Positions 5,298 to 41,706 of a DNA stretch of 64,000 bases are shown piece by piece. Where the stretch lies: NCBI RefSeq assembly GCF_001592735.1, contig NZ_LUKE01000001.1, forward strand, positions 186,001 to 250,000. Reading direction: 5' to 3'. The notes under the pieces were generated by a model. That model saw only the letters and a list, made by a program, of their open reading frames with translations. It did not search any database and was not told the DNA's origin. Within the stretch, counting starts at the first letter, position 1, and each line of letters begins with the position of its first letter. Made by a program: the position numbers and the translations under genes. This DNA is from Bdellovibrio bacteriovorus (GTDB lineage Bacteria > Bdellovibrionota > Bdellovibrionia > Bdellovibrionales > Bdellovibrionaceae).

Positions 5298-7559
5298 TTA
5301 AAGACCGCGGATTAAGTTCAACGCACTTCCCGCGCGGAACCATTTTAATTGTTCAGCGTTATAGGTGTGCTTCAGTTCAATATTTTCGGTTGTTCCGTCT
5401 TTGTGCTTAAGAACCATGGTCACCGGTTTTCCAGGTGCTAGGTCCTTAAGGTTGATCAAGCTGACCAAATCAGTCTCTTGGACTTTGTCGTAATCTTTTG
5501 GATTAGCGAAAGTTAAAGCCAAGACACCTTGTTTTTTCAAATTGGTTTCATGGATACGCGCAAATGATTTTGTGATCACCGCCGTACCACCTAAGAACCT
5601 TGGCGACATCGCCGCATGTTCACGTGAAGAACCTTCCCCGTAGTTTTCATCGCCAATGATAACCCAGCCCTTACCTTGTTTTTGGTAATTGCGCGCCACT
5701 TGTGGGAACTCGATGTGCTCTTCACCGGTGAGCAAGTTTTTACCTTTACCAATTTCCGCAGTGAACGCGTTATCCGCACCCAACAACATGTTGTTAGAGA
5801 TGTTGTCTAAGTGACCGCGATAATTTAACCACTTACCCCCCGGAGAGATATGATCCGTTGTACATTTGCCTTTGGCTTTGGCTAAAACCAGGTTGTCCAC
5901 AAAATCTTTTCCATCCCATTTTGTAAACGGAGCTAGTAATTGCAAACGCTCAGACGTGGGGCTGACCGCCACTTGCGCTTGAGCCCCCGCAGGTTTTTGA
6001 TAACCTTCGGTGTCAGGGATAAAACCTTGCGCTGGCAATTCAGGCGCCACCGGTGCTTGAAGTTTGATTTTGCCTTTAGGTCCTTGAAGCTCATCGGTCG
6101 CTGGATTGAAATCCAAGCGTCCGGCTAAGCCCAACGCCATCACGATTTCTGGGGATCCGATGAAAGCCAACGTCTCAGGGTTCGCATCATTACGTGCACG
6201 GAAGTTGCGGTTGAATGACGTCACGATAGTATTTTTAGTACCCGTTTTGACGTCATCACGGCGCCATTGACCGATACAAGGTCCGCAAGCATTTGCCAAG
6301 ACTGTCGCGCCCACTTCGTTGAACGTCGCCATTTGACCGTCGCGTTCAATTGTTTTTTGGATCTGTGTGGAACCCGGCGACACTAGGAACGGTTGATTCA
6401 TTTTAACACCGATATCCATAGCTTGTTTGGCGACGAAGGCCGCTCTGCCAATGTCTTCGTAAGAAGAGTTCGTGCAAGAACCAATCAACGCGGAAGAAAT
6501 CTCGATCGTGTAACCTTTTTCTGCAGATTCTTTTTTAAGGGCCGAAATAGGACGCGCGATGTCTGGAGAGTGAGGACCCACTAAGTGGGGTTCTAACGCT
6601 GACAAATCGATTTCGTAAACCTCGTCAAAGTATTTACCTGGATTCGCCATCACATCAGCATCGGCGGACAAAAGATCTTTGTGCCCATCAGCCACTTGTG
6701 AAAGCTCAGTACGGCCTGTTGATTTTAAATAGGCCGCCATACGATCATCATAAGGAAACACAGAGCAAGTAGCCCCAAGTTCTGCCCCCATGTTCGTGAT
6801 CGTGGCTTTACCCGTACAAGAAATGGAAGACGTTCCTTCACCAAAGTACTCAACAATTTTATCTGTTCCACCTTTAACGGTGAGCATTCCGCAAAGTTTT
6901 AAGATCACGTCTTTTGCTGACGCCCAACCTTGCAATTTACCTTTTAAGTGAACACCAATAAGTTTTGGATTTTTAACTTCCCAAGGAAGTCCGACCATCA
7001 CGTCCGAAGCGTCAGATCCCCCGACACCGACGGCACACATCCCCAAACCACCGGCATTCGGTGTGTGAGAGTCTGTTCCGATCATCAAGCCACCGGGGAA
7101 CGCGTAGTTTTCTAAGATCACTTGGTGAATGATACCCGCACCTGGTCTCCAGAACCCGATGTTGTAACGAGACGATGTTGTCGCCAAAAACTCAAAAACT
7201 TCTTTGTTCGACATGTTTGAAGCGTTCATGTCCGCTTCTTTACCTTTGTAAGCTTGGATCAAGTGATCGCAGTGGACTGTTGAAGGAACGGCGGCTTCAT
7301 CTTTTCCCGCAAGCATGAATTGCAACAAAGCCATTTGCGCCGTCGCATCTTGCATCGCCACACGGTCCGGTCTTAACAATAAGAAACTTTCACCGCGAAC
7401 AAGCTCTTGATTTTGAGGGTCATCCAAGTGACCAAAAAGAATTTTTTCTGCAAGAGTCAAAGGACGGTTCAAACGGTTGCGGATCACCGTCAAACGTTCT
7501 GCGGTTTTCTTGTAAACGTTTTGCACCATCTCGGGAGTGGTTTCGATTTTAGAAGCCAT
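5298..7559 (-). CDS. acn: Aconitate hydratase (mitochondrial-type)
   Basis: A 753-residue enzyme that isomerises citrate to isocitrate via cis-aconitate in the TCA cycle, in the cytoplasm. The three [4Fe-4S] cysteines are visible in [14 protein letters not shown] and [10 protein letters not shown]. Substrate-site motifs HCDHLI and [13 protein letters not shown] are present, as is the C-terminal swivel domain ([15 protein letters not shown] and [15 protein letters not shown]). The length and N-terminal sequence fit the shorter mitochondrial-type aconitase rather than the roughly 890-residue AcnA or AcnB. It is monocistronic here, with 97 bp to the divergent sirtuin gene. Confidence 0.97.
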
Positions 7560-7656
7560 GAGTATTGCCTTTCTGTAAAGAACGGCCCATCCTAATGAAA
7601 ATCAGTTGAAAACTCAAACAGTTGCACCCCTTTGTGCGAAGCGATAAAGTGCCTCT

Positions 7657-8367
7657 ATGAACCGCGAAATTTTTAAAAATATTGTGATCTTAACCGGTGC
7701 TGGAATCAGCGCTGAAAGCGGCATTCGCACCTTTCGGGATCAAGACGGATTGTGGGAGGAGCATCGCATTGAAGACGTCGCGACTCCAGAAGCATTTCAA
7801 CGCGACCCCGCCTTGGTTCAACGCTTTTACAATCTGCGCCGTGCACAGCTTAAAGATGAAAATGTGCTACCAAATAAGGCACACGAAGCCTTGGCCCGCT
7901 TAGAATCAGAATGGGAAGGAAACTTTCTTTTGGTCACGCAGAATGTCGACAACTTGCATCGTCGTGCGGGATCTAAAAACTTACTGCACATGCATGGAAG
8001 GTTGGATCGCGTGTTCTGTCAAAATTGTGACGAACACTGGGATCACAGCGAAAATTTGGCGGTGGACGAGGCTTGCATCGCCTGCGGTCGTCGCGGCAAC
8101 GTGCGCCCCGATATCGTGTGGTTTGGCGAGATGCCCTATCACATGGATGAAATTTACGAGGCTTTAGATAAAGCCGATTATTTTATTTCTATTGGCACTA
8201 GCGGCCTGGTGTACCCGGCCGCGGGCTTTGTCCAAATCGCATGGAAAGCGCGAAAGATTGAATTTAATATGAAAGAAACCGGGATCTCCCCGGCCTTTCA
8301 CGAACACCGCATGGGTCCGGCCACTGTCGAAGTGGACCAATGGGTGAATGAGATTTTAACTGACTAG
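7657..8367 (+). CDS. NAD-dependent protein deacylase (sirtuin, CobB/SIRT5-like)
   Basis: A 236-residue cytoplasmic sirtuin that removes acyl groups from lysines using NAD. Motifs: GAGISAESGIRTFRD (NAD binding), TQNVDNLHRRAG, catalytic His113 in LLHMHG, and a zinc site formed by CQNC and CIAC. Tyr58 and Arg61 form the YxxR pair that in SIRT5-type (class III) sirtuins recognises succinyl and malonyl groups, so desuccinylase activity is plausible as well as deacetylation. No operon partner is evident; the next gene is convergent. Confidence 0.95.
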   Translation: MNREIFKNIVILTGAGISAESGIRTFRDQDGLWEEHRIEDVATPEAFQRDPALVQRFYNLRRAQLKDENVLPNKAHEALARLESEWEGNFLLVTQNVDNLHRRAGSKNLLHMHGRLDRVFCQNCDEHWDHSENLAVDEACIACGRRGNVRPDIVWFGEMPYHMDEIYEALDKADYFISIGTSGLVYPAAGFVQIAWKARKIEFNMKETGISPAFHEHRMGPATVEVDQWVNEILTD

Positions 8368-26896: not shown

Positions 26897-27814
26897 ATGA
26901 ACCGAACACTAAGAAATCTGGGACAGCGGGTGTTAGTACTTTTAATGGGGCTCATAGCCTTTCCCGGAATTGTCCTCGCTCAAAATGCGCCCACCCCCCA
27001 ACAGCCCTACATTACGTTTATCATTGCCGAACACTATCAGAACTCAGCCCTCCATCTTCTTAAAAGAGCGCAAAAAGCCGGAGTTTCTTACCTGGGCACT
27101 GAAAACCCGGTATCCCTAGATACGTTGATCCAGCGTGCTTCAGAAATAAAATACGTCGCCTTAGAAAATTTCGTAAAGCCCGAAGGCGCCTACCGCCACA
27201 CCGCTTTTTATTCTCCTTCCACAAAGACCGTCTTCATCAACCTTTATTCGCCGGTCGACACGGATCTTATTTCCGTATTAGCCCTTCATGAAATCTTGGG
27301 CGCACTGGGATACAATGATTCAGACTATGACATCAGCCTGGGATTGTTTCTGTATACCAATGCTTCACTCAAAGCCCCTGGCAAGGTTTCATCGGACCAA
27401 TCAAAATACATAACTCTTTCAGAAATCAATCGCGCCTTTGATCGTCAAGCCTTTGTCATTCCCGGCCCGGATTCGTTTTTAAACTATGGCGGAGTCAACT
27501 TCGTCGGTGGTGCCGGGGACATTCGCAGCCTTCGCTATAAACATGATATTTTAGTTCTTCTGTGGAGCTTGGATTTCGACGAAACGATAAAGCGCCTTTA
27601 TTCAAAAGCCTTTTTCCAAATGAGTTTCGAGTTTGGCAGCTCAAATTCAGAGATCCAATTTGTAAAGAAGCGACAACCCCTTCGATCGTTAGGTGATGTT
27701 TTGGTCATCGTCCCTGAAGATCGCAATTTACTGCCTGCAATTCCCACTGCAGATCTGCTCACTATCGCCTCTTTCGTGAATGATCATTTAGGACTTATCC
27801 ATGACGCCAAATAG
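26897..27814 (+). CDS. Secreted protein of unknown function, coupled to TIGR02147 regulator
   Basis: A 305-residue protein with a signal peptide (MNRTLRNLGQRVLVLLMGLI through VLAQ). The start at 26897 follows a GAGAGG site. The mature protein has no domain I recognise; visible landmarks are VALHEILGALGYNDSD-like text near residue 135 (a single HE, not HExxH) and a C-terminal block with DVLVIVPEDRNLLP. It overlaps the next gene, a TIGR02147 regulator, by 14 bp, so both are expressed together. Confidence 0.8.
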   Translation: MNRTLRNLGQRVLVLLMGLIAFPGIVLAQNAPTPQQPYITFIIAEHYQNSALHLLKRAQKAGVSYLGTENPVSLDTLIQRASEIKYVALENFVKPEGAYRHTAFYSPSTKTVFINLYSPVDTDLISVLALHEILGALGYNDSDYDISLGLFLYTNASLKAPGKVSSDQSKYITLSEINRAFDRQAFVIPGPDSFLNYGGVNFVGGAGDIRSLRYKHDILVLLWSLDFDETIKRLYSKAFFQMSFEFGSSNSEIQFVKKRQPLRSLGDVLVIVPEDRNLLPAIPTADLLTIASFVNDHLGLIHDAK

Positions 27815-28625
27815 TAATGACATGATTTCTGGAATTTTGCGTGAGGCCTTTGCTCGCAGAAAAAAAGAAAACAAATTCTTTTCTTTCCGTTTGATCGCCA
27901 AAAAAATGGATACCAGCGTTTCCTTGATTTCACAGATCATGAACGGAAAGCGCTCGCTGACCCTTGAAATGATCGAAGATTTTTCGAACGTTCTTGATTT
28001 AGACAATGATCAGTACGACGAACTGGTAAAGCTTATCATGAACAAAAAAAAGGTGCGTGCTTCCACGGGCCCCCTGCACCTTCCTGACGTGAAGGCACCC
28101 CTGACAATCTCAACACCCGTTGATTGGAATGCCCAACCCAAACAAAACTTTTGGGTTTTGCAAGACTGGCATTATCTTGCGATCTTAGATGCCACGTACC
28201 TGGCCGACTGCGATGGCACACCGGCGTATTTTGCAAAAAAATTAAACCTTGACCTGGATGTCGCCACTGAAGCCATCGAAGAAATGCTTCAGGATGGATT
28301 GCTTGAATGGAAGGACGGCAAGCTTATTAAGTCGGCCAATTATAATTCTTTTCAATCCAAAGCCAACCGTGCCGATATTTTGAGTTATCACAAAAGTGCT
28401 CTTAAAAAATCTCTAGAGATTTTAGAAACGCAATCAGACGAAGGCCAGGCTGAACACCGCCTCGTCAACTCGATGACCTTGACCGTCCCCGAAGACAAAG
28501 TCACCTGGGCTAAACAGCAGATTTCGCAGTTTCTAAAAGCGATTGCGGTAGAGCTTTCTCAAGGCCCTGAAGAGCACGTTTACCAATTGTCAGTGCAATT
28601 CGTTCCTTTGTCGGTGCGGGAATAA
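27801..28625 (+). CDS. TIGR02147 family HTH regulator
   Basis: A 274-residue protein. An N-terminal HTH is visible (FSFRLIAKKMDTSVSLISQI, then MNGKRSLTLEMIEDFSNVLD), followed by the family's C-terminal helical region with WHYLAILDATYLADCDGTPA and LSYHKSALKKSLEIL. It probably binds DNA as a dimer. It overlaps the secreted-protein gene and lies next to the fibre-gene region, whose promoters carry a shared palindrome, so it is a candidate regulator of that region. This link is inference. Confidence 0.85.
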   Translation: MTPNSNDMISGILREAFARRKKENKFFSFRLIAKKMDTSVSLISQIMNGKRSLTLEMIEDFSNVLDLDNDQYDELVKLIMNKKKVRASTGPLHLPDVKAPLTISTPVDWNAQPKQNFWVLQDWHYLAILDATYLADCDGTPAYFAKKLNLDLDVATEAIEEMLQDGLLEWKDGKLIKSANYNSFQSKANRADILSYHKSALKKSLEILETQSDEGQAEHRLVNSMTLTVPEDKVTWAKQQISQFLKAIAVELSQGPEEHVYQLSVQFVPLSVRE

Positions 28626-28637
28626 GCGGACCGACCT

Positions 28638-29351
28638 TTACTGGCAGCGATAATAAAAGTTACTAAAATAGACACATATAGCGCCCTCAGGGTAACAGGT
28701 ACCACCGCTCGGAGCAGCGGAGGGACAACCGGGGGCAGAGCTGGGACGACCTGAAATTTGCGTCCATCTTAACTGGCGCGCGCAAGAGTTACTCACCACC
28801 GATCGGGTTCCATTGTTACAACGATAAGAGCAAGATCCGGAATAACCACTGGCACAAGTCCCTGAAGCGCCGTTGTGAGCAGAGGCTGAATAGTTACAAT
28901 TACTCGTGGCACCCGCCGCACACCCCGAAGAACAACTGCCATTGGCATAAGTCCCAGAAAGCGTTCCCGTATTGCACGTCCTTGTTTGACTGACCGTCGA
29001 ACATGCCGCCCCCACGGGCGCCGTGGACGAATACGCTGTCACTGAACCACCATGCGCTAAAGTTCCACCCCAAGGCAGATTACAACTTGCAGGTGAACAA
29101 GAGTTGTCAGAGGCCATCCAGGTTTTACGGAAACACGAATAACTGCAGGCCCCCGTATAACCACTCACACAAGTTCCGCTGGTGGCTCCACTTCGAGATT
29201 GAGATAAACTGCAATTGCTGATGGTGGTGCTGTTGCAAGAAGCGGGATTTTTAAAAAAACTACTTCCCATTGCGGATACTTGAGCCAGCGCGGACGGAGA
29301 TGTCAGTAGCGCCACCAAGAAGACTCCCACCAAACTTCTTAAAGCGCTCAC
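28638..29351 (-). CDS. Secreted cysteine-rich fibre-partner protein (tip A)
   Basis: A 237-residue secreted protein with 20 cysteines. I chose GTG at 29351 because it overlaps the fibre stop as GTGA, mirroring the ATGA overlap of the paralogue at 32410; a TTG at 29366 is an alternative. After the signal peptide (ending ALAQ) come a C-x-SGYTG-x-CSY-x-C repeat, a CNLPWGGTLAHGGSVTAYSS block ending in a TRTC...GTLSG segment, a second SGYSGSCSYRC repeat, and a C-terminus ending YYRCQ. The first 16 cysteines align with those of the paralogue; the last about 45 residues differ. Its placement suggests it binds, caps or matures the fibre. Confidence 0.85.
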   Translation of the reverse strand: MSALRSLVGVFLVALLTSPSALAQVSAMGSSFFKNPASCNSTTISNCSLSQSRSGATSGTCVSGYTGACSYSCFRKTWMASDNSCSPASCNLPWGGTLAHGGSVTAYSSTAPVGAACSTVSQTRTCNTGTLSGTYANGSCSSGCAAGATSNCNYSASAHNGASGTCASGYSGSCSYRCNNGTRSVVSNSCARQLRWTQISGRPSSAPGCPSAAPSGGTCYPEGAICVYFSNFYYRCQ

Positions 29352-31531
29352 AATCCCGGACTCCAAGAAACATACACGTCAGAACCCAGTACTAAAAAGT
29401 TATACAACGTGTGTTTTGCAGAGGTTGTCGCGCCATGATCTATCGGCATATGCACCGTCAGTGCCCCCGTCCCAAGACCACTGTAAGCCGTAAAAGAACA
29501 TGTGGCGACCGAAGTGCCCTTAACCGCAAAAGTGTAAGCTCCTCCGTCTTTCATATTATTAAGCACAAACGACTGACAGTTCAAAGCCGTGTGTTGCAGA
29601 TTTCCGCTAGAGAAATTAACATTCACCGACGTGTTATTGACCGAGCCTGCATTGGTGATATCGCCGTTGACTTGCAATCTGCTCACAGGCGTCGTTGTTC
29701 CGATCCCGACATGACCGCCATTGGGATTCACCAGCACATAGCCACGAGTTGAATTGCTGGTGGAATTAATTGTCAGCGTCTCACTGGCCGCCGTTCCGCC
29801 ATAAATAGTCTGTCCACCCGTGCGCCCCGCCTGCAGGACGTACTGATTAAAAATATCACCGGAAATCGCTTGGAAACCAGGGACGCCAGACCCATTTGTT
29901 GTTAATATCGCATTATTTGCGCTCGCTAAACCTGTCAGGGCCCCGGCGCTGTCAGAGGCAACGACTCTTATACCTGCCGCGCTTAAAGAAGACAGCGTCA
30001 TGCCCGCAAATGTCGGGGTGGCCGCCGTATGAATGTTTTGCGGAGTCGAAAGCGTGATAGACCCGGCGGCGTGAGACACGATCACTTGCTGAGTTGTGCC
30101 GTTAAGGGTTTTATACTCGTAACCTGAAGCCCCGTTGTTCATTCCTAAGAGTTGATGGCTTGTTCCAAGGCCGCTTAAACCTGCCAGCGAAATCGAAGGA
30201 GTATCACCCCCAGAAGAACTGAGCGGCGAAGTTGCAGAGACCGAACTAACTCCGCCACCGCTTCCGCTGGGTAAGCTTGCGGGAACCCAACTGCTGGTGC
30301 CGGCGTCGTATCTTAAGACATCTCCCGCGTTGGGGGTCGTCGTCGCTACGTTCACATTGCGAATTTTGGTCACCGTGGTACTAGATTGTGTTCCGGTGAC
30401 GTCACCGCTTAAAGAACCGGAAAACCCCGCGGCCGTACCGGAAATATTTCCACTGACCTGAGAGGCGGGAATCGCGATATTTGTACAAGTAAATCCACCC
30501 ACTGGAGAAACAAAGGTCATTGTTTGCGCGGCGGTGCAAGAAGTCGGAAATTGGGCATAGTCCGGTTTGCCCGCCAAATTTGTACTAAGATCCGAAATAT
30601 CCGAAACGGAGATCGCTCCATTGACCCAGCTTCCGGCGCTATATTTAAGAATGTGACCATTTGCCAGGGAAGAAAAAGAAAGAGGTGTATTTTTAATTTT
30701 ATCAACACTGATATTGGCAGCCGTGCCACTGACGTCTCCACCAAAGCTCGTCGAAGCACCCAGTTTATTATTAAACGTAGTCCAATCCGTCGAGGTTAAA
30801 TATCCATGTTGAGAGTTCGATGCCGCTTGGATCGTGATATGTGGTGTGGATTGTCCATTGCTTACCGCTAAAGGAGAAGCCACGGTCACATCGGTCACCG
30901 TCCCCCCCGCACTTCCACTGACTCCGGCGCAACCAAAGGATTTAGTCGTGGCATTCCAAGTTAAAAAACTTCCCGAGTCACAAGAGGCATTGCCGTTGAC
31001 GGAATCTTTTAATACGAAAGCATTGACTCCATGGTCTCCTAATTTTTGCGCCGCCAATGAAAAAGCCGCGTAAGGCACGGTGCGAATCACGTTATCCGGA
31101 GAAATCGCCTTCCAACTATGGCCATCATTAAACTGAACTCTTAAAAGTCGGGAATCCGTGTTGACCGCAGAATAAGTGCCTCCGCTGCTTACACACGTGT
31201 ATCCTGAACAACTGCCACAGCTAAAAACCGAATTATTATTAAACGAATCTAAGATAGAGAAACTTCCCCCCGTGGGCCAAGAAACATTTCCCGTACCAAT
31301 GGGGACATCAAAGACGCCCTTCGAGTTCGTCATGTCTATGCCCGTTACGTATTCTTGATAGATCACACATTGTCCACTGGGATCCGTGATTTTAAATAAA
31401 AAACTTATATTTTGATGTTCTAAAGGAGTTCCATCCGCGCGAACGATACGCCCTTGGTATGTTAGGGTGACCGGAGCAGAATGACTTGGTTGAAAAAAAA
31501 GAAGGATCAAAAAAACGATAAATACGGGCAT
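29348..31531 (-). CDS. Phage-tail-like fibre protein (mosaic adhesive trimer type), fibre 1
   Basis: A 727-residue secreted protein. Order: signal peptide (ending SHSA); conserved N-terminal module of about 190 residues (VTLTYQGRIVRADGTPLEH, GVFDVPIGTGNVSWP, LRVQFNDGHSWKAISP, FLTWNATTKSFGCAGVSG); repeated shaft units (FGGDVSGTAANISVDKIKN, SGSLSGDVTGTQSSTTVTKI); a GHVGIGTTTPVSRLQVNG fibre motif; and a distinct C-terminal tip rich in aromatics and Ser/Thr. The layout fits the chimeric trimeric fibres of Bdellovibrio that recognise prey surfaces. It is translationally coupled to a cysteine-rich partner gene. Confidence 0.88.
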   Translation of the reverse strand: MPVFIVFLILLFFQPSHSAPVTLTYQGRIVRADGTPLEHQNISFLFKITDPSGQCVIYQEYVTGIDMTNSKGVFDVPIGTGNVSWPTGGSFSILDSFNNNSVFSCGSCSGYTCVSSGGTYSAVNTDSRLLRVQFNDGHSWKAISPDNVIRTVPYAAFSLAAQKLGDHGVNAFVLKDSVNGNASCDSGSFLTWNATTKSFGCAGVSGSAGGTVTDVTVASPLAVSNGQSTPHITIQAASNSQHGYLTSTDWTTFNNKLGASTSFGGDVSGTAANISVDKIKNTPLSFSSLANGHILKYSAGSWVNGAISVSDISDLSTNLAGKPDYAQFPTSCTAAQTMTFVSPVGGFTCTNIAIPASQVSGNISGTAAGFSGSLSGDVTGTQSSTTVTKIRNVNVATTTPNAGDVLRYDAGTSSWVPASLPSGSGGGVSSVSATSPLSSSGGDTPSISLAGLSGLGTSHQLLGMNNGASGYEYKTLNGTTQQVIVSHAAGSITLSTPQNIHTAATPTFAGMTLSSLSAAGIRVVASDSAGALTGLASANNAILTTNGSGVPGFQAISGDIFNQYVLQAGRTGGQTIYGGTAASETLTINSTSNSTRGYVLVNPNGGHVGIGTTTPVSRLQVNGDITNAGSVNNTSVNVNFSSGNLQHTALNCQSFVLNNMKDGGAYTFAVKGTSVATCSFTAYSGLGTGALTVHMPIDHGATTSAKHTLYNFLVLGSDVYVSWSPGL

Positions 31532-31603
31532 CCAACACGCTCCTTGCCATAGGAGTCTTATCGGTGTTTACGAGGTCTTCTTAAAAACAAAGAAAACTTT
31601 ATG

Positions 31604-31641
31604 TTCACGGTTTGTGAATCTTTTCGTTCACATTTTGTGAA
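31604..31641. promoter_or_regulatory. Two tandem TTCAC...GTGAA palindromes upstream of fibre 1
   Basis: TTCAC-GGTTT-GTGAA (31604-31618) and TTCACA-TTT-TGTGAA (31627-31641), both perfect inverted repeats, with centres 23 bp apart. The nearer centre is 80 bp from the fibre-1 ATG, the same distance as the single site before fibre 2. Confidence 0.72.
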
Positions 31642-31660
31642 AAATTTAAATACTCCGTCG

Positions 31661-32410
31661 TTATTGGCAACGGAAGTTGTAAATGCAAGGCCCCCCACCA
31701 CAGTTTCCGTAAAGGATATAACAAGTCTTCCCAATGGGGGAACACGTCCCCGAGGGAGCAACATTGTTCGTACACTGCGCGCCCGAAGAGCCGCCGTTGA
31801 CCCAAGTCCCCGTAGGCACCGCACAAGAGTTGCTTACGACCGATCGTGTTCCGTTGTTACACCGATAAGAACATGAGCCTGTGTAACCGCTGACGCACGA
31901 TCCAGAGGCTCCATTGTGAGCCGCAGCAGTATAGCTACAATTACTCGTTGTACCAGCAGCACAACCCGACGAACATGTGGAGTTTGTATAGCTTCCAGAA
32001 AGTGTTCCCGTACTACACGTCCGTGTCTGGCTGACCGTAGAACACGCCGCCCCCACCGGAGCCGTTGAGGAATATGCCGTCACGGAACTGCCATTGGCTA
32101 AAGTTCCACCCCAAGGAAGAGTGCAACTTGCAGGTGCACAAGAATTTGCAGAAGCCGTCCAAGTTTTACGAAAACAAGAGTAACTGCAGGTGCCCGTGTA
32201 ACCGCTCACACAACTTCCACTGCTAGAACCACTTGGCGTTGTGACCAAATTGCAATTGCTGATGGTGGTACTGATGCAAGAAACGGGATTTTTAAAAAAC
32301 CCACCTCCCGTCGCCGAAACTTGGGCCTGCGCGAAGTTGGACGCGAGCAGCGCCCCTAAAAAAGCTCCCATGAAATTTTGCGATATCCGTATTACAAGCC
32401 TGTTCATCAT
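31661..32410 (-). CDS. Secreted cysteine-rich fibre-partner protein (tip B)
   Basis: A 249-residue paralogue of the protein at 28638, with 22 cysteines. The scaffold is closely similar: C-x-SGYTGTCSYSC, CTLPWGGTLANGSSVTAYSS, TRTCSTGTLSGSYT, HNGASGSCVSGYTGSCSYRC and NNGTRSVVSNSC. The C-terminus is different (GTWVNGGSSGAQCTNN then a Gly/Cys-rich segment), although both end in an RCQ tripeptide. It overlaps fibre 2 by 4 bp (ATGA). Sixteen conserved cysteines imply a disulfide-locked extracellular fold. No known enzyme motif is seen. Confidence 0.87.
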   Translation of the reverse strand: MMNRLVIRISQNFMGAFLGALLASNFAQAQVSATGGGFFKNPVSCISTTISNCNLVTTPSGSSSGSCVSGYTGTCSYSCFRKTWTASANSCAPASCTLPWGGTLANGSSVTAYSSTAPVGAACSTVSQTRTCSTGTLSGSYTNSTCSSGCAAGTTSNCSYTAAAHNGASGSCVSGYTGSCSYRCNNGTRSVVSNSCAVPTGTWVNGGSSGAQCTNNVAPSGTCSPIGKTCYILYGNCGGGPCIYNFRCQ

Positions 32411-35400
32411 CTGTAACCAGTTATAAAAGCATGGCAGGTGGCATTGGTAGATCCTAAACTTGCATTAAAAGCGATATAAACTTTGTTATCACTGGTCTTC
32501 GGAAGCCAAAATGAACTTGAGTTCCATGACCAGCTAGTTTGTCCCGCATAAGAATAGGCATACAAATAATTATCATAAATAGCTGCACCTTCTTTGGTGT
32601 AGATCCTGATATCAGCACCCGCGTTGACAGCAGCATTTCCCGTGCGGCATCTCATGTAGATTAAAACTTCTCTGGCGGTAGTGGCCGCAACTGGAATATC
32701 AAAAGCCTGTTCACTTGTGGTCGTAACACTGACCGTTCCCAAAGAGGTTAGACCCAAACTTGTCCACGTGGGCCCGGTGCTTGAAGCCGTCGTTTGCACA
32801 CTTCCATCAGGAAACTTAATTCCATTTCCGGATCCCGCAACTTTGATATTACCGGTGACTTCCAACTTCTCGGTGGGGCCGGTAGTGCCAATACCGACAT
32901 TGCCGTTTGTGTAAGAAGTATTCTGACCATTCACTGACCATGGGTTGGCGTTGCCAGAAAAGGCGCCGCCCGTGGCGGATTGAAAAGAAATTCCGTCTAA
33001 CGCACTCCACGTGGAAGAGGAGCTATAAGCAAGTACGCACCCATCCGACGTGACATCTATACGGCCCTGAGTATTCGCGTTGATGATTTGATCAAAGAGT
33101 TCTCGATTTGCCGGGCGGTAACCTACTGGGAGAGTAAAGATACAAGCACTTAAGGTCCCGGACTTAACCAACCCGCGAATGTGGACTCTTCCAAAAGGAT
33201 CTTTATAGTATCCTACCGGGTTAAATGCGTTTTCATAATTCACCCAACCATTCTGCAACGTCGGAGTCTGCCAAGATTCCAAAGTGAATCCGCCGCTAGC
33301 ACCCACTTCATTCCACGAAGAGCCCGTGTAGACATGCGTGGTTCCGGTGGTCGTATTAAACACCATCATGCCTGCCGTTGGCGAACTGATCGCATTCATC
33401 TGGGTGGTGGTCATTGAAGGTAAACCGAGGCCCTTACTTGTCGAAGAAAAATCAATCTTATCCAATGTCACCGAATTATTTTGCAGCTGAGTGGTCCCAA
33501 CACTATTGGCTCCGCCGACGCCACCGATGTCTCCCCAGGTACTTCCGTTAAACACATTCATGGAATTAGATGTGGTGTTATAAATAAGTAATCCTGTCGC
33601 CGGAGACGTGATCGCGTTTTTCTGAGCGTCCGTCATGCGTGGTGGGAGAAAACCTTTGGCCGTGGAACTCAAATCTAAAAGAGCACTCGCTGTAGGTGTC
33701 GAAGTTCCTATACCGACGTTTCCGGCGTTGTCGATGATCATTCGCTCCGCGCCAGCAGTGTCGAAGCGGATTCGATCTTCATCAGGGCTTTTTTCCAACA
33801 TGATTTTTGTATCGTGGTCTGCATCTTCTGCGAATGCTCGGATATTATTACCAAAAAATCTACCTTTACCTTCCGAAATAAAATCAGAGATATTTTTCGA
33901 AAGGCATTCGACATAGTCTCCCGCATTTAAGTGGCTGTTCCAGGTTTTATCCGAATTGAAAATGAGATAACGGTTGTTGACCTCGTCTCCTGGAATTTCA
34001 TAATAAAGTCTATTATCACTGTTGGAGTAATTACCAGCGAAATGAAAAATTCGAGGCTGCTTGGGAGCCGTGTCTACATTCTGCACGCAAACGATCGCAT
34101 CGGGCCACCCTGGGTACAGTGCGGAGGTGGTCGCTCCACCAAGGTCAGTTATATCATTAATGATAGTTCCATCGGGAAGTTTGAACCCGCCGGAAGTGGA
34201 TTCGATAACTCCGGAAACAGTTAACTTTGAAGTCGGCGACGTAGTACCTATCCCTACATTTCCGCTAGTCCGATAAACATTCCCACTAGACTCTGTCCAA
34301 AGGGCATTGGTCACTGAACTCGGCAAGCGAGCGGCATCTAATGTTCCGGAGGTAATTTTCTCTGCCGCCAGATTTCCAATGGCCTGACAGGTAAAGGAGT
34401 CGGTCAAAGAAGACCAGGCGACAGTTTGATCAGCGCCGCAAGCCCCGATATTAAACGCAGAGGTGCCCGAAGAATTTTTGATATCGCTGAAAAGGATGTC
34501 TTGACCTGACCAAGAAGTTCCGTTTGATTTTAAAAATTTTCCAGAAGCCCCTGAAGCTGCCGGTAACGCGGCCACCGTATTCGTGGTCACTGCGGTGATA
34601 CGGCCTTTTGTATCGACGGTGATACTTGGGATGCTCGTGGAACTGCCGTAGGTGCCAGCCGTTAATCCCGAAACCGTCGCCAGCTTGTCTTGAGTGACTG
34701 CTCCATCATTGATTTGCGCAGTATCAATCATTCCACCACCGCCCGAGGGCCAAGTGTTGATACAAGTTGAACCCAAACAAAACTCATCGGCTTTTACTTT
34801 TCCCGAGACGTCCAGCTTTACTGTAGCCGAAGATTTCCCAACCCCGACATTTCCATTCGCGGAAATATTAATTCCTTCATTGTCTCCATCACTGGAAATC
34901 CAATTGGATCCAGTCACCAGATTTTGGGCTAACGTGTGATTTCCTAAATTGTCCGCTCCCGCAGAGCTAGCACCGGCGGCCGTTAATGGGTAAGCGATAA
35001 ATTCAGATGACGTAGTATTGCCCGAGCTTATGTCATAGTTGATCTCGACGTAATCAGAGGTTCCATTCAGATCGAGAACAGTCACAACTTCAACGTAAGC
35101 ATTGCTAGAAGAAGTGGAACGCGTGAAGTTGTAATCTCCCAGGACGCCATTTTTTGCAACTCGGGCAAAAAGGTGACCTCCCACCGCCATGCCCTGCCCG
35201 TCATGGCGTGCAATGATGAGATATTTCCCCGCACTCACAGGTTGGAAGCGGCCCGTTGACAGATTGAACTCATTTAATGAGTCAAAAGGTTTAGTATTGA
35301 AGCTACGCACACCCGATCCGGACTGCGATAGAGAGCTCTTTGCTCTGACAATATTGTTCGCGGTCGAATAAGACCAATTACTTCCGTCAAAAAATTCTAA

Positions 35401-36936
35401 GCGTTTGGTGTCGGTGTTATAAATATGCAAACCCGACGCCGGAGAAGCAATGGCATTTCTTTGCGCCGTCGTCATTCGCGGCATCAAAACGCCCTTCGAA
35501 GTTGAAGAGACATCCAAAGCCGCAGAAGTATTCGGAGATGCTGTGCCTATACCCACATTTCCCGTGGCTTGGTAAATCAACGAGTTCGCTAAGGTGTTAG
35601 CACCGCTATAATACGGCACGTACCCGGCTGTTCCTGAACCTGACAAAGTCCCGCTCGGAAGATCACCAGAACTCAAACTCGCTGGCGCCCATTGAGAGCC
35701 ATTGTATTTTAAAACTTGATTATTCGTGGGCACGGTTGCTGACACGACAACCCCTTGCAATTTACCCACGACGGTTGCTGACTGGGTGCCCGCTACATCG
35801 CCACTTAAAGAGCCGCTAAAACCCGAAGCCGTGCCCGAAATATTTCCAGACACTTGAGAACCCGCAATCGCAATGTTCGTGCAAGTAAAACCACCCACAG
35901 GCGAAATAAACGTCAACGTCTGTGCCGCCGTGCATGTGGTCGGAAATTGAGAGTAATCAGGCTTACCAGCCATCACTCCACTGAGCCCCGAAATATCCGC
36001 GATCGCAAGCGTGTCATTAACCCAGTTGCCACCGCTGTACTTTAAAATATCTCCCGAAGACAGACCCGAGGTCATGACCGAAACATTTTTAATCTTATTA
36101 ACGCTGATATTCGAAGCCGTCCCGCTGACATCTCCCGCAAAAACAGTCGCTGGGCCTAACTTCGCATTGAAGGCCGTCCAGTCTCCTGAAGACAAATAAC
36201 CACCCTGCGTGGCGGAGGCCGCTTGAATAGTCAGATGCGGAGTCGAAGACTCCGTCCCCGCCGCCACCGAAAGCGGAGACGCTGCAGTCACTTCCGTCAC
36301 CGTGCCACCGCTAGCGCCAGAAACACCCGAACAACCAAATGTTTTGGTCGTGGCATTCCAAGTGAGAAACTGACCGCCACCACCGCAAGAGGTGTTGCTG
36401 TTGATTTCGCTTTTTAAGACAAAAGAATTTGCATCATGGGATCCCAGTTTTTGTGCTGAGAGTGAGTACCCCGCGAAAGGCACGGAGCGGATCATGGTGT
36501 TAGGAGAAATAGTCCTCCAGCCATTGCCATCATGAAATTGAACTTTTAACACACGGCCATCATCCGTCAAAGGACCGTAAGAACTTGAAGCCGCCGTACA
36601 TGTGTATCCCGAACAAAGACCGCAAGAAAAATTCGCAGAGTTATTAAAGGCATCTAAAACACTAAAGCTCCCCGACGTCGGCCAAGACACCGTGCCAGAG
36701 CCAATCGGAACATCAAAAACCCCTTTAGAGCCGATCATGTTATAACCGGTAACCTGTTCTTGATAAATTACGCAGGAGCCAGAGGGATTGGTGATTTGGA
36801 AAATAAAAGCGACGTTGTTATATTCGAGTGCGGTGCTATCACTTCTTAGGATGCGGCCTTGATAAGTTAACACGGCGGGGCTTGCTTGCACCCATTGACC
36901 CAAAAATGCCACAATCAAAATAATCCAAATACGCAT
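32407..36936 (-). CDS. Phage-tail-like fibre protein (mosaic adhesive trimer type), fibre 2
   Basis: A 1509-residue secreted fibre. ATG at 36936 gives the signal MRIWIILIVAFLGQWVQA; a TTG one codon earlier is possible. Order: the shared N-terminal module; SGTAS/SLSGD shaft repeats; GNVGIGT-type repeats; three copies of an SSTxKG(x)xP(R/S)MTxxQ block alternating with a C1q-like beta domain near residues 545-660 (RFQPVSAGKYLIIARHDGQG); a phage-tip-like domain around 1290 (LQNGWVNYENAFNPVGYYKD); and a final C-terminal tip ending CHAFITGYR. It appears assembled from swapped modules. It is coupled to the cysteine-rich partner at 31661. Confidence 0.88.
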   Translation of the reverse strand: MRIWIILIVAFLGQWVQASPAVLTYQGRILRSDSTALEYNNVAFIFQITNPSGSCVIYQEQVTGYNMIGSKGVFDVPIGSGTVSWPTSGSFSVLDAFNNSANFSCGLCSGYTCTAASSSYGPLTDDGRVLKVQFHDGNGWRTISPNTMIRSVPFAGYSLSAQKLGSHDANSFVLKSEINSNTSCGGGGQFLTWNATTKTFGCSGVSGASGGTVTEVTAASPLSVAAGTESSTPHLTIQAASATQGGYLSSGDWTAFNAKLGPATVFAGDVSGTASNISVNKIKNVSVMTSGLSSGDILKYSGGNWVNDTLAIADISGLSGVMAGKPDYSQFPTTCTAAQTLTFISPVGGFTCTNIAIAGSQVSGNISGTASGFSGSLSGDVAGTQSATVVGKLQGVVVSATVPTNNQVLKYNGSQWAPASLSSGDLPSGTLSGSGTAGYVPYYSGANTLANSLIYQATGNVGIGTASPNTSAALDVSSTSKGVLMPRMTTAQRNAIASPASGLHIYNTDTKRLEFFDGSNWSYSTANNIVRAKSSLSQSGSGVRSFNTKPFDSLNEFNLSTGRFQPVSAGKYLIIARHDGQGMAVGGHLFARVAKNGVLGDYNFTRSTSSSNAYVEVVTVLDLNGTSDYVEINYDISSGNTTSSEFIAYPLTAAGASSAGADNLGNHTLAQNLVTGSNWISSDGDNEGINISANGNVGVGKSSATVKLDVSGKVKADEFCLGSTCINTWPSGGGGMIDTAQINDGAVTQDKLATVSGLTAGTYGSSTSIPSITVDTKGRITAVTTNTVAALPAASGASGKFLKSNGTSWSGQDILFSDIKNSSGTSAFNIGACGADQTVAWSSLTDSFTCQAIGNLAAEKITSGTLDAARLPSSVTNALWTESSGNVYRTSGNVGIGTTSPTSKLTVSGVIESTSGGFKLPDGTIINDITDLGGATTSALYPGWPDAIVCVQNVDTAPKQPRIFHFAGNYSNSDNRLYYEIPGDEVNNRYLIFNSDKTWNSHLNAGDYVECLSKNISDFISEGKGRFFGNNIRAFAEDADHDTKIMLEKSPDEDRIRFDTAGAERMIIDNAGNVGIGTSTPTASALLDLSSTAKGFLPPRMTDAQKNAITSPATGLLIYNTTSNSMNVFNGSTWGDIGGVGGANSVGTTQLQNNSVTLDKIDFSSTSKGLGLPSMTTTQMNAISSPTAGMMVFNTTTGTTHVYTGSSWNEVGASGGFTLESWQTPTLQNGWVNYENAFNPVGYYKDPFGRVHIRGLVKSGTLSACIFTLPVGYRPANRELFDQIINANTQGRIDVTSDGCVLAYSSSSTWSALDGISFQSATGGAFSGNANPWSVNGQNTSYTNGNVGIGTTGPTEKLEVTGNIKVAGSGNGIKFPDGSVQTTASSTGPTWTSLGLTSLGTVSVTTTSEQAFDIPVAATTAREVLIYMRCRTGNAAVNAGADIRIYTKEGAAIYDNYLYAYSYAGQTSWSWNSSSFWLPKTSDNKVYIAFNASLGSTNATCHAFITGYR

Positions 36937-36958
36937 CAAAACGCTCCGTGTATATGTA

Positions 36959-36981
36959 ACCTATCGACAGATGCGATAGGT
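36959..36981 (-). other. Hairpin in fibre-2 leader
   Basis: ACCTATCG, loop ACAGATG, CGATAGGT: a perfect 8-bp stem, 23 bp upstream of the fibre-2 start and between it and the operator palindrome. It is not present in the other two fibre leaders. It may be an mRNA 5' stabiliser or a DNA-binding site. Confidence 0.5.
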
Positions 36982-37007
36982 CTCTGAATATCACTCTTAA
37001 TTTACTG

Positions 37008-37022
37008 TTCACAAAATGTGAC
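37008..37022. promoter_or_regulatory. TTCACA-AAA-TGTGAc palindrome upstream of fibre 2
   Basis: An inverted repeat with one outer mismatch; its centre is 79 bp upstream of the fibre-2 ATG. It is a member of the shared operator set. Confidence 0.65.
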
Positions 37023-37029
37023 AAGGTTC

Positions 37030-40000
37030 TTATTTACAAATCGAAGCCTTCGGATCTTTAGAGCACAAATACGCTTTGAGTCTTTCATTTTCAGCCTTCA
37101 CCGCAGCCAGTTCGCGATGAATATTTTTGCTGTCGTCAAACCAGCGATGGTAAAATTCTTTAATGGCATTGACGACCGCCCAGTGGATCGGATCCACGTT
37201 CAGCTCCAGATATCCGTCTTCGCGTTTATTCACAGCTTCAGGTATCACCTTTTGAACTTCTTGAGCGATAAATCCGGTCTTCACAAAATCCGAAGGCAAC
37301 CCCAACGCATTGTCTTTTTTGTAGTTATATAAAACCGTGTGCAGCTGCAATACTTCATCCAAGCCTCGGGGGTAATCCCCATGGATGTCTTTTAATCTTA
37401 AATCCGAAGCATTTGTCCAAGCCGTGCCTGTACTAAGACCTGCCGTGCCCACAACGTGAAGTTTGTAAGAAGGTGATGTCGTGCCAATTCCAACATTTCC
37501 AAAGCTGGGCTGTAAAACCAAAGGAGAAGTCCCAACACCGCTGGCCCACCCGGCAATCCACGAGTAAGCCCCAGTGTCATTTCCTCCCAGGTGAACGCCA
37601 TGCACATTGTCTTTGAATGAAGCTCCATCGATTGCTGCAGAGCCATTGCCACTCGCTCCGACAACATGAAGCCTTGTACTGGGATTTGTTACACCAATCC
37701 CTACGTGCCCCGTTGTCGTATCCACAGTAAGGTGATCGGTGATGGTCGCGCCCGAAGTATTTGGAGGAGCCGAGCTCAAGTTTATTTTATTCTGAGTCAT
37801 TCTAAGTGCCGTGCCACGCACCGTCGCATGGGTTGAGTTCCACTTAGTTCCATCCCAAGAGAGGTCCATAGCAAAATAGGGATATCCACTTGTTCCTAAG
37901 CCTTGGTAACCAAAAGATCCCGTCCTGATAATCGGAAATCCGCTGGAATCAAAAATGTGCAGATTCGTCGAGGGACTTGATGTTCCAATACCGACTTTTC
38001 CTGCCGAATAGAAAACATCAGATCCATTCGTGGTCCACTGCCCGGTAGAGCCACTTCCGCAACGATATTGAATACTGGTCGTCGCTGAGGAACCGTAATA
38101 CATATTATTGTTATAGTTATCGTCAGCGCTATAAGTCAGAGCTTTATTCGAAGAGTTCACTATTCTCCAACTGGCCGTCGTGGCTCCAGAGACCGTGTTC
38201 GTGATGGCTCCGAGAGAGTTTGCATGGACCCAACTGGCGCGAATGCCATTAAGTACGTACTCACATTGAGGATTAAAATCCGCCGTATCAGATAATGAAA
38301 GAGTGTTCCACGTCCCGCCAGCGCCGGAAGTAACAGCGGTGGTTTGTATCGATCCATCAGGAAACTTAAATCCGCCTGACGTGGACTCAATGACTCCAAC
38401 CACAGTTAACGGTGAAGCAGGATTAGTTGTACCTATGCCCACATTCCCCGTATTCCGGTACACATTCCCACTGGCTTGCGTCCAAAGAGCACTGGTCACA
38501 GAACTTGGTAAGCGAGCGGCATCCAAAGTTCCGGTAGTGATTTTATCTGCATCTAAGTTTCCGATCAGCTGGCAGCTGAATGAGTCCGTCAGAGAAGACC
38601 AAGCCACCGTTTGATTGGCTCCACAAGCCCCGATATTAAACGCTGAAGCGCCCGAAGAATTTTTAATATCACTGAAGCGAATATCTTGCCCCGACCACGA
38701 AGTGCCATCGGATTTTAAAAATTTACCAGATGCCGCAGAGGCTGCGGGCAAGGCGGCCACCGTGTTCGTTGTTACGGCTGTCACCCGACCTTTGTTATCC
38801 ACAGTAATACTAGGAATTGTCGTCGCATTGCCATAAGTGCCGGCCGTTAAGCCTGAGACGGTGGCAAGTTTATTTGAAGTGACTGCGCCATCCTGAATAT
38901 GAACTGTTGCCACGCTGTCATTGCCAAGAGATCCTGAGGCCGCCAAAGGTCCCCAGCTAGTGCCATTAAAGATATTCATCGCGTTGGTGGTGGTATTATA
39001 AACTATCAAGCCCGCAGCAGGAGACACAATCACATCACGCTGAGCTTGATTCATGCGAGGCACAAGCAGACCCTTATTAAAAGAAACTAAATCTAAGATG
39101 GCCGAAGGCGATGGCGTGGATGTTCCGATACCCACTTGACCATCATTTTTGATGCGCAAAATTTCCGAGCCCGTGCTCGCGAAATCTCCGTTATAATCCA
39201 CGGCGGTTCTAAAAGTGATATCCGCTGTTTCCGAGGCGAAGACCATCGCATTGTCGTCCACGGTGAATCCGCCGGTGTTGGAGCCTGTTTTTTCTAAAAT
39301 CACATGAGGGTTGTCATACGAGCGAATCACCAATGAAGCATTGGGATTTGAGACGTTGCTATGGGCTCCCCCGATAGAGACGCTGCCTCGCACATCTAAA
39401 AGACCTTCCGGGCTGGTGGTCCCAATACCCACTTGCCCCGCAGACTGAGACACCACCGAATCAGCCAACACATTAGCGGCGCTGTAATAGGGCAAACGGC
39501 CCGTAGTTCCTGATCCCGATAAGGTTCCGCTAGGAAGATCGCTCGATCCCAAAGTCGCCGGAGCCCACTGAGAGCCGTTGTATTTTAGAACCTGATTATT
39601 TGTGGGCGCTGTCGCTGATACCGCGACTCCTTGCAATTTGCCAACGACCGTCGCGGCTTGCGTGCCTGTCACATCTCCGCTTAAAGAGCCTGTGAATCCC
39701 GACGCCGTTCCAGAAATATTTCCTGATACTTGAGAGCCTGGAATTAATCCAGAAATATCCGCGGCCGAAAGACTGCCGTTCACCCAATTGCCACCGCTGT
39801 ATTTTAAAACATCGCCCGCAGAAACTCCTGAAATCGAAAGAGCCACGTTCTTCAATTTATCTACGCTTATCGCCGAAGCAGTTCCAGAAACATCCCCGGA
39901 AAACACCGTCGATGTTCCAATTTTATTATTAAACGTTGTCCAATCCGCGGCAGAAAGATATCCCGGCTGTGAACTCGAAGCAGGTTGAATTCTGATATTT

Positions 40001-40695
40001 GGTGTCGAGGATTCCGTTCCCACATCCACGATCAACGGCGAGGCCGCCGTCACTTGCATCACCGTCCCCCCACTTGAACCAGAAACCGCCGCGCATCCGA
40101 AGGTTTTAGTTGTGGCATTCCAGGTAAGGAATTGTCCCCCACTGCAAGAGGTATTGTTATTAACATCGTTTTTAAGAACAAATGAGTTGGCATCATGAGA
40201 ACCCAGTTTTTGCGACGCCAATGCATACCCGGCAAAAGGAACCGAGCGAATTGCGGTGTTCGGAGAAACACTTCGCCAGCCGTTGCCATCATGAAACTGA
40301 ACTTTTAAAACACGTCCATCCTCTGCCACGGGATTGTAAGACCCGGATCCCGCAACACAGTTATAACCTGAACACGCACCACAGGAAAAATTTGAAGCGT
40401 TATTAAAAGCATCCAGAACACCAAACCCACCCACCGCGGGCCAAGATATAGTTCCAGATCCGATCGGCACATCAAAGACCCCTTTTGTGCCCGCCATATT
40501 CACGCCGGTAACTTGCTCTTGATAAATCACGCACAGACCCGATGGATTCGTAATTTGGAAAATGAAAGCGACGTTAGAATGCTCAAGAGGTGTGCCATCA
40601 GATTTTAGAATACGGCCTTGATACGTGAGAGCCGAAGGACTTGAATAAGCCCACTGTGCCAGAAATGCTGATATCAAAACGATATATATATGCAT
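37030..40695 (-). CDS. Phage-tail-like fibre protein with peptidase S74 intramolecular chaperone, fibre 3
   Basis: A 1221-residue secreted fibre. ATG at 40695 gives signal MHIYIVLISAFLAQWAYS. Order: shared N-terminal module; shaft repeats; several GxVGIGTxxP repeats; an SFNKGLLVPRMNQAQRDVI block; and a long region nearly duplicated from fibre 2. The C-terminus is a peptidase S74 auto-processing chaperone: SDLRLK with Ser1097 and Lys1102 as the likely dyad, then FVKTGFIAQEVQKVIPEAV, and a coiled coil (ELAAVKAENERLKAYL). Cleavage before Ser1097 would release about 125 residues after trimer folding. No cysteine-rich partner follows. Phage endosialidase-type tail spikes mature this way. Confidence 0.9.
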   Translation of the reverse strand: MHIYIVLISAFLAQWAYSSPSALTYQGRILKSDGTPLEHSNVAFIFQITNPSGLCVIYQEQVTGVNMAGTKGVFDVPIGSGTISWPAVGGFGVLDAFNNASNFSCGACSGYNCVAGSGSYNPVAEDGRVLKVQFHDGNGWRSVSPNTAIRSVPFAGYALASQKLGSHDANSFVLKNDVNNNTSCSGGQFLTWNATTKTFGCAAVSGSSGGTVMQVTAASPLIVDVGTESSTPNIRIQPASSSQPGYLSAADWTTFNNKIGTSTVFSGDVSGTASAISVDKLKNVALSISGVSAGDVLKYSGGNWVNGSLSAADISGLIPGSQVSGNISGTASGFTGSLSGDVTGTQAATVVGKLQGVAVSATAPTNNQVLKYNGSQWAPATLGSSDLPSGTLSGSGTTGRLPYYSAANVLADSVVSQSAGQVGIGTTSPEGLLDVRGSVSIGGAHSNVSNPNASLVIRSYDNPHVILEKTGSNTGGFTVDDNAMVFASETADITFRTAVDYNGDFASTGSEILRIKNDGQVGIGTSTPSPSAILDLVSFNKGLLVPRMNQAQRDVIVSPAAGLIVYNTTTNAMNIFNGTSWGPLAASGSLGNDSVATVHIQDGAVTSNKLATVSGLTAGTYGNATTIPSITVDNKGRVTAVTTNTVAALPAASAASGKFLKSDGTSWSGQDIRFSDIKNSSGASAFNIGACGANQTVAWSSLTDSFSCQLIGNLDADKITTGTLDAARLPSSVTSALWTQASGNVYRNTGNVGIGTTNPASPLTVVGVIESTSGGFKFPDGSIQTTAVTSGAGGTWNTLSLSDTADFNPQCEYVLNGIRASWVHANSLGAITNTVSGATTASWRIVNSSNKALTYSADDNYNNNMYYGSSATTSIQYRCGSGSTGQWTTNGSDVFYSAGKVGIGTSSPSTNLHIFDSSGFPIIRTGSFGYQGLGTSGYPYFAMDLSWDGTKWNSTHATVRGTALRMTQNKINLSSAPPNTSGATITDHLTVDTTTGHVGIGVTNPSTRLHVVGASGNGSAAIDGASFKDNVHGVHLGGNDTGAYSWIAGWASGVGTSPLVLQPSFGNVGIGTTSPSYKLHVVGTAGLSTGTAWTNASDLRLKDIHGDYPRGLDEVLQLHTVLYNYKKDNALGLPSDFVKTGFIAQEVQKVIPEAVNKREDGYLELNVDPIHWAVVNAIKEFYHRWFDDSKNIHRELAAVKAENERLKAYLCSKDPKASICK

Positions 40696-40902: not shown

Positions 40903-41706
40903 ATGCCGCACGCACAAGAAAAACTGAACAAACCATTTTTTAAGGATTTCAATTCGGCGGCCGATTTTTTATTCGCAAAATACTTATTCTATCGGCAACA
41001 AGGACATTTTAGCCTTAGAAGACGCTGTATTGACGTCGGAAAATATACGCAAGCCTATGTGTCGCAAATCTTAAATAAGAAAAGAAATATTTCAGAAAAC
41101 AACTTACCGGCCCTGGCCGAAATATTTTTACTTTCCTCTGAAGAAGAAAAACAAATTTTAAAAAGCCTGAATCCCACGCAAGACGAGGCGTCTTCATTCA
41201 CCACCGAAGGAGCCCATCGTCGTATCGGTCGCCTTATCAAACATTGGTACTATCCATATATTTGGAGTGCTGCCAACTTAAAGAACTTCACTGATGATCC
41301 TCAAGTGATACAAAAAATGCTCTTAGGTTTGGTGCCGGCGCACAACATCGAAAAAGCCATTACGTATTTCCTATCCGAAGGCCTTTGGCGCAAAACCATG
41401 GGCGGCAAGGTGGTTCCGGATACTCATCAGCTTATTGACGAGAAAACTCCGGCCTACATTTCGGAACAGCTCCACAAAAAAGCTTTAGAAATAGTCGCTC
41501 AGAAAATCGAAACGCGCCAGACTCCCTTGCCTTATCTAAGTACAACCTTGTTGGCCGTTGATAGCCAAAAGCTTCAACTGATCCAAGAAAGATTAAACTC
41601 GCTGGAGCAAGAGTTGCGTCGCCTCAATGATCAGCCCTCCCCTGAAGCAAATAAACTTATCCAAGTCACTCTTCATATGGTCACCGTGGGGGAGACCGTT
41701 GAATAA
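40903..41706 (+). CDS. TIGR02147 family HTH regulator
   Basis: A 267-residue TIGR02147 protein: an N-terminal segment DFNSAADFLFAKYLFYRQQG, an HTH region (RCIDVGKYTQAYVSQILNKK) with NISENNLPALAEIFLL, and the C-terminal domain (RLIKHWYYPYIWSAANLKNF, DTHQLIDEKTPAYISEQLHK). An AAAAGGATG-rich leader precedes the start. It is divergent from fibre 3 with 207 bp between, so autoregulation and control of the fibres are plausible; the target is not demonstrated. Confidence 0.87.
   Translation: MPHAQEKLNKPFFKDFNSAADFLFAKYLFYRQQGHFSLRRRCIDVGKYTQAYVSQILNKKRNISENNLPALAEIFLLSSEEEKQILKSLNPTQDEASSFTTEGAHRRIGRLIKHWYYPYIWSAANLKNFTDDPQVIQKMLLGLVPAHNIEKAITYFLSEGLWRKTMGGKVVPDTHQLIDEKTPAYISEQLHKKALEIVAQKIETRQTPLPYLSTTLLAVDSQKLQLIQERLNSLEQELRRLNDQPSPEANKLIQVTLHMVTVGETVE

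Follow-up and report, generated by a model that had tools for sequence, protein, structure and literature searches.

A fibre-tip domain with tightly coupled secreted partners suggests a two-gene adhesin in Bdellovibrio and its relatives

Some fibres of Bdellovibrio and related bacteria end in an undescribed domain of about 100 residues, here named T1, and their genes are followed unusually often by an overlapping or abutting gene for a separately secreted protein, the partner. We consider it rather probable that T1 is a docking socket, the N-terminus of the partner a plug and the partner body an exchangeable receptor-binding head, with fib1 and cys1 of the window (the whole stretch of 64,000 nucleotides analysed) as one example of a two-gene adhesin that is widespread. 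T1 domains make up a consistent family, always at the very C-terminal end of the fibre, and occur in 74 of 369 Bdellovibrionota genomes, in 35 genera; about 145 instances of T1 are counted in all. It was recognised in a survey of mosaic adhesive trimers (MATs) in seven Bdellovibrio genomes, in which secreted genes abutting the non-S74 fibres were frequent and several of these fibres had the tip of fib1. For the recognition of many prey by predatory bacteria, MAT fibres are the foremost candidates. If the docking proposal is true, a head swapped as a gene would explain how the repertoire grows without rebuilding of the fibre, and the combination of a T1 tip with a GF[WF]K partner would provide a testable rule to find heads in any genome.

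The region 28638-40695 of the window holds five minus-strand genes whose order of transcription, checked in the sequence, is fib3, fib2, cys2, fib1, cys1 (table 1); the start of fib2 is preceded by fib3, 90 bp upstream. The NCBIfam model NF053851 (Bdello_MAT_N) matches all three fibres, behind a signal peptide, above its cut-off (E-values 4e-59 to 3e-62), and each has either S74 or a distinct non-S74 tip, as is typical of MATs: S74 in fib3, the Bd2133 tip in fib2 and T1 in fib1. This bears out the sequence-only reading, which had described three fibres with a common N-terminal module and differing tips and had placed them among the Bdellovibrio MATs. Its further observation, that two of the fibre genes overlap by 4 bp with genes for secreted proteins of 20 and 22 cysteines, was confirmed exactly, with GTGA at 29348-29351 (fib1/cys1) and ATGA at 32407-32410 (fib2/cys2). 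The overlap, homology and purifying selection of cys1 and cys2 are far beyond chance. According to the main text of the MAT paper, the HD100 MATs are trimeric and displayed at the predator surface (PMC10769870), and the window fibres share with them the N-terminal MAT domain and exchangeable non-S74 tips, the tip of fib2 being that of Bd2133. In contrast, the tips in that main text are described within the fibre chain, with no separately encoded partner (PMC10769870), whereas two of the window fibres have a coupled gene for one. The coupled partners, which had been put forward as an undescribed component of the system, are thus absent from that source; in the open-access papers and the MAT main text covered by our novelty check, the only tips are those built into the fibre.

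Table 1. Features of the fibre-partner cluster, with positions in the window.
Feature	Position	Strand	Description	Evidence
fib3	37030..40695	-	S74-type MAT fibre, ATG start, self-chaperoned	NF053851, E 3e-62; PF13884 Peptidase_S74, E 1e-10
fib2	32407..36936	-	MAT fibre, 1509 aa, non-S74	NF053851, E 5e-62
fib2 tip	32410..32784	-	Bd2133-type beta-sandwich, residues 1385-1509	PDB 8ond/8ok3 match, E 9e-62
cys2	31661..32410	-	Secreted Cys-rich partner, 249 aa, 22 Cys	ATGA overlap with fib2
cys2 N-terminal motif	32285..32323	-	Candidate plug motif, mature N-terminus QVSATGGGFFKNP	PWM score 9.7
cys2 C-terminal tail	31664..31819	-	Putative variable Cys head, residues 198-249	39% aa identity to cys1 tail
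fib1	29348..31531	-	MAT fibre, 727 aa, non-S74	NF053851, E 4e-59
fib1 tip	29351..29650	-	T1 domain, last ~100 residues, candidate docking socket	T1 family; AlphaFold pLDDT >90
cys1	28638..29351	-	Secreted Cys-rich partner, 237 aa, 20 Cys, GTG start	GTGA overlap with fib1
cys1 N-terminal motif	29244..29282	-	Candidate plug motif, mature N-terminus QVSAMGSSFFKNP	PWM score 4.2
cys1 C-terminal tail	28641..28781	-	Putative variable Cys head, residues 191-237	Divergence of the cys1 and cys2 tails

The coupling was counted by one automatic rule for all classes of gene, with signal peptides called by a simple hydrophobicity heuristic. Enough downstream DNA was available for 59 T1 fibres, and behind 40 of them a gene with a signal peptide lies at -40 to +25 bp. 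The corresponding counts are 7/87 for S74 MATs (P = 2e-14), 13/57 for the remaining MATs (P = 1e-6) and 32/251 for secreted genes of other kinds (P = 9e-17), where the statistics treat as independent loci that phylogenetically are not. The loci fetched after the idea had been formed behave alike (31 of 46 coupled, mostly overlapping or at most 5 bp apart). The automatic rule probably admits L222 and L240, which look like membrane proteins, as false positives and probably misses the partner-like L201, L210 and L216. About a third of T1 fibres are without a tightly coupled secreted gene; at L100 the partner lies on the opposite strand, tail to tail with the fibre, and nonetheless has the motif described below.

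The bodies of the T1 partners are diverse. BLAST sorts them into 27 clusters, of which a few are probably spurious, and Pfam assigns them to unrelated folds, namely LamG_3, RCC1, NHL, kelch, DUF5122/Rax2 propeller and TSP1, and further to Gly-rich, ALK/LTK Gly-rich, FGE-sulfatase (a C-type-lectin-like fold) and DUF285. At L075, for instance, the apparent partner is an NHL propeller encoded at 6117-8195. What they tend to carry in common is a G-F-[WF]-K-type motif directly after the predicted signal peptide (e.g., FRSNVGFWQ, QMFNMGAFWKRK, QFAGGSFFKRR, QMIPHGAWKRR), found also in both window proteins as QVSAMGSSFFKNP (cys1) and QVSATGGGFFKNP (cys2). The EM log-likelihood of the motif is 198.9, against 95.3 +/- 4.6 (maximum 105.5) in 60 control draws, and its cluster-level leave-one-out AUC versus 270 control secreted proteins is 0.84 (P = 3.5e-9). 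With a PWM trained on the other partners cys2 scores 9.7, a value that none of the 270 controls reaches; the score of cys1, 4.2, is equalled or exceeded by 6% of controls. The width of 6, with more starts, was chosen after a run at width 7, which gave a cluster-level AUC of 0.80 (P = 1e-7) and a cys1 score of -0.3, the latter apparently through phase instability. Thus, the family-level result is independent of the choice of width, whereas the score of cys1 itself depends on it. The GF[WF]K core is absent from some partners, e.g., certain LamG ones (L227, L233).

T1 is also found outside Bdellovibrionota, on fibres of Flavobacterium branchiophilum and of MAGs labelled Cyclobacteriaceae, Spirosoma and Algoriphagus; in every case a secreted gene comes next and either abuts or overlaps the fibre gene. 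The shaft, shown for the Algoriphagus fibre, is collagen (PF01391). In the Bacteroidota survey T1 is rare (1/299 and 2/291 genomes; one further case is also coupled), and so a horizontal spread is possible. The three Bacteroidota partners scanned all have a FISUMP match below the curated cut-off; nothing linking FISUMP to tail fibres was found in the open-access literature.

Coupling that follows the T1 tip (40/59, versus 7/87 and 13/57) and not MATs generally, and that is kept on other shafts in another phylum, makes it unlikely, in our judgement, that the partner is a secreted adhesin in its own right, linked to the fibre by co-expression only, with a motif that serves as a sorting or surface-retention signal read by some factor other than the tip. 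Such an adhesin would agree with the position of the motif directly after the signal peptide, where sorting signals can lie, with the presence of the motif in cys2 next to a fibre without T1, and with coupling, which co-transcription alone would lead one to expect. Under the docking proposal, the conserved T1 socket would form the distal end of the fibre trimer, and the partner, translated right after the fibre from the overlapping or abutting gene and then exported separately, would dock on T1 through its short mature N-terminal motif of x-x-G-F-[WF]-K type. The remainder of the partner would be an exchangeable receptor-binding head, in cys1 a scaffold rich in disulfides that ends in a variable C-terminal tip and elsewhere a LamG, beta-propeller, Gly-rich, TSP1 or FGE/C-type-lectin-like domain. 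From the conservation of T1, the coupling, the diversity of partners, their common motif and the division of cys1 and cys2 into constant scaffold and variable tail, all shown at the sequence level, we infer that the motif binds T1 and that the partner remains attached to the fibre and makes contact with the prey. The broader idea, that T1 and the motif are an interface mounting interchangeable heads on varied shafts, whether MAT, collagen-like or of other kinds, in Bdellovibrionota and here and there in Bacteroidota, so that predators could change their target range by exchange of one downstream gene, seems to us evenly balanced between right and wrong.

The phage T4 protein gp38 is released after assembly, and the gene order of fibre then chaperone is classic. 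A partner acting likewise, as a tip chaperone or maturation factor not retained on the fibre, would suit this order as well as the rarity of coupling at S74 fibres, which have their own chaperone (7/87). However, more than 20 unrelated folds would be needless for one conserved tip, many partners have lectin or propeller folds and are exported on their own, and the cys tails diverge over a constrained scaffold, all of which renders a chaperone quite improbable. Of the roles conceived by the sequence-only reading, capping and presenting the tip fit these data; cleaving it, or chaperoning it, is disfavoured because the partner folds vary so widely on one conserved tip. Ordinary operon crowding without function, which could appeal to the commonness of overlap among bacterial genes and to the 13-14% of other genes in the loci that have a coupled secreted neighbour, deserves next to no credence, being already contradicted by the fivefold enrichment at T1 fibres (P = 1e-15 to 1e-17 versus other genes), its replication in the newly fetched loci and the common motif besides.

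The docking arrangement proposed here resembles T2-type phage fibres, in which gp38 sits at the tip of gp37 and contacts it by its N-terminus (PMC12892980). As in the gp37-gp38 pair of T2/S16 (PMC12892980), a fibre gene is followed by a gene for a separate head (GTGA and ATGA in the window; 40/59 T1 loci), and the gp38 N-terminus that contacts the fibre tip would have its parallel in the N-terminal motif common to the partners. Furthermore, some partners are Gly-rich, and two match Gly-rich families. The systems differ in that the bacterial fibre and its partner would each leave the cell by Sec/Tat and be displayed at the surface, and in that gp38 is one polyglycine-sandwich family, whereas the heads here belong to many unrelated folds. 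In the search for gp38 homology or a polyglycine-II sandwich, cys1 and cys2 gave no PHROG family and cys2 no match to a phage record. Since no homology to gp37-gp38 was found and both parts have export signals, we do not file the pair as a member of that family; if the proposal is true, bacteria would have in it an equivalent of the gp37-gp38 tip of phages.

The two Cys-rich partners of the window are homologous (67% identity over 241 aa, E 8e-93). Their scaffold is 81% identical (dN 0.10, dS 1.06, dN/dS about 0.1) and consists of two related modules, identical at 23 of 47 positions in cys2, flanking a different one; the last ~50 residues, a Cys-containing tail, are only 39% identical. This constant scaffold with a variable tail is a pattern like the conserved base and variable tip of the MAT fibres themselves. 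The sequence-only reading had centred on the Cys-rich proteins, and here it is too narrow: the coupled secreted partner does recur, with a T1 tip, a varying fold and a mature N-terminal motif, and the Cys-rich scaffold does not. No full-length relative outside the source genome was found in 23 congeneric or 369 Bdellovibrionota genomes, or with narrow peptide patterns in scans of GTDB and viral contigs, and one Cys module of ~50 aa recurs, often in tandem, in unrelated Cys-rich secreted proteins that mostly lie away from fibres. The scaffold was thus rejected as the conserved unit, and a tally of its adjacency to fibre genes, taken literally, is uninformative because no full-length form was found beyond this genome. 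Searches against curated models (TSP1, EGF, sushi, etc.) gave no Pfam, NCBIfam or PHROG family for cys1 or cys2, and the PDB no convincing match for cys2, whose predicted structure (pLDDT 48.6) is too poor for fold assignment. One copy of the Cys module is present in a 908-aa PKD-like lipoprotein (L003, 100-2826) with a Hint/intein-like stretch at its end, and similar frames of ~910-950 aa occur in many congeners.

The pair fib2/cys2 is a complication, since fib2 lacks T1 and has a Bd2133-type tip instead, though the adjoining cys2 has the clearer motif. This tip is present in only 3/369 genomes, and no coupled partner was found at Bd2133 itself or at its homologue in genome G105, so that it was rejected as a general docking tip. 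In the crystal structure of Bd2133, as given in the main text of the MAT paper, a foreign N-terminal peptide occupies the apical trimer pocket (PMC10769870), and hence tips of this type might be able to take up a peptide too. Most likely, cys2 belongs to the same system as fib1/cys1, fib2 having undergone a tip swap. Its docking site may be the T1 of fib1 or the apical pocket of the Bd2133-type tip. Two accounts are equally possible: cys2 was stranded by a tip swap and now serves the T1 of fib1, or the Bd2133-type tip accepts its peptide.

The T1 tip of fib1 has no sequence match in Pfam, NCBIfam, PHROG or PDB. Its AlphaFold model has a pLDDT >90 across the domain, and VIA-align places the phage fibre/tailspike connector domains T4 gp9 and CBA120 TSP4 among its top neighbours with Z of 5.7-6.3, middling values that unrelated folds can reach; there is no sequence similarity, and the likeness is suggestive only. 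Foldseek gave no PDB match to the model at E<=0.001 and, among BFVD viral predictions, many phage tail-fibre and collagen-repeat proteins (E about 1e-6 to 1e-4), which we read only as a common fibre-tip-like fold. A phage origin of T1 or of the cys proteins by sequence was rejected for want of any match.

Coupled secreted genes are also seen at other kinds of fibre. At L089, L097, L150 and L160, short non-S74 MATs (626 aa in genome G001, as stated for Bd2872) precede a conserved signal-bearing protein of 145 aa that has pentapeptide-like repeats, and this pairing, judged from sequence, would make a second fibre-partner class without T1. By eye, some S74 MATs (L117, L187, L131, L166 and L188) are coupled as well, to a fibrinogen-like protein (YCDMTTDGGGWT) in two genomes and to LVIVD-type propellers in three loci. 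At L070 (4182 and 9364) and L170, other non-S74 tips, one of them common to both loci, have coupled partners resembling propellers, and a different motif, FMGMTAMRLGKK / FNGRSMSVIGKR, is common to the mature N-termini of these proteins, which suggests a second tip-plug pairing. At L139 a MAT seemingly occupies two overlapping frames of 516 and then 723 aa, the second ending in S74, possibly by a frameshift. In the window cluster itself, a 193-aa stretch (fib2 733-925, fib3 614-806) is 81% identical within otherwise diverged shafts, which suggests recent recombination between the neighbouring fibres. Regulators of the XRE/DUF4423 type lie on the plus strand on each side of the cluster, at 27801-28625 and 40903-41706, and by eye similar ones stand beside the MAT loci L058, L061 and L067.
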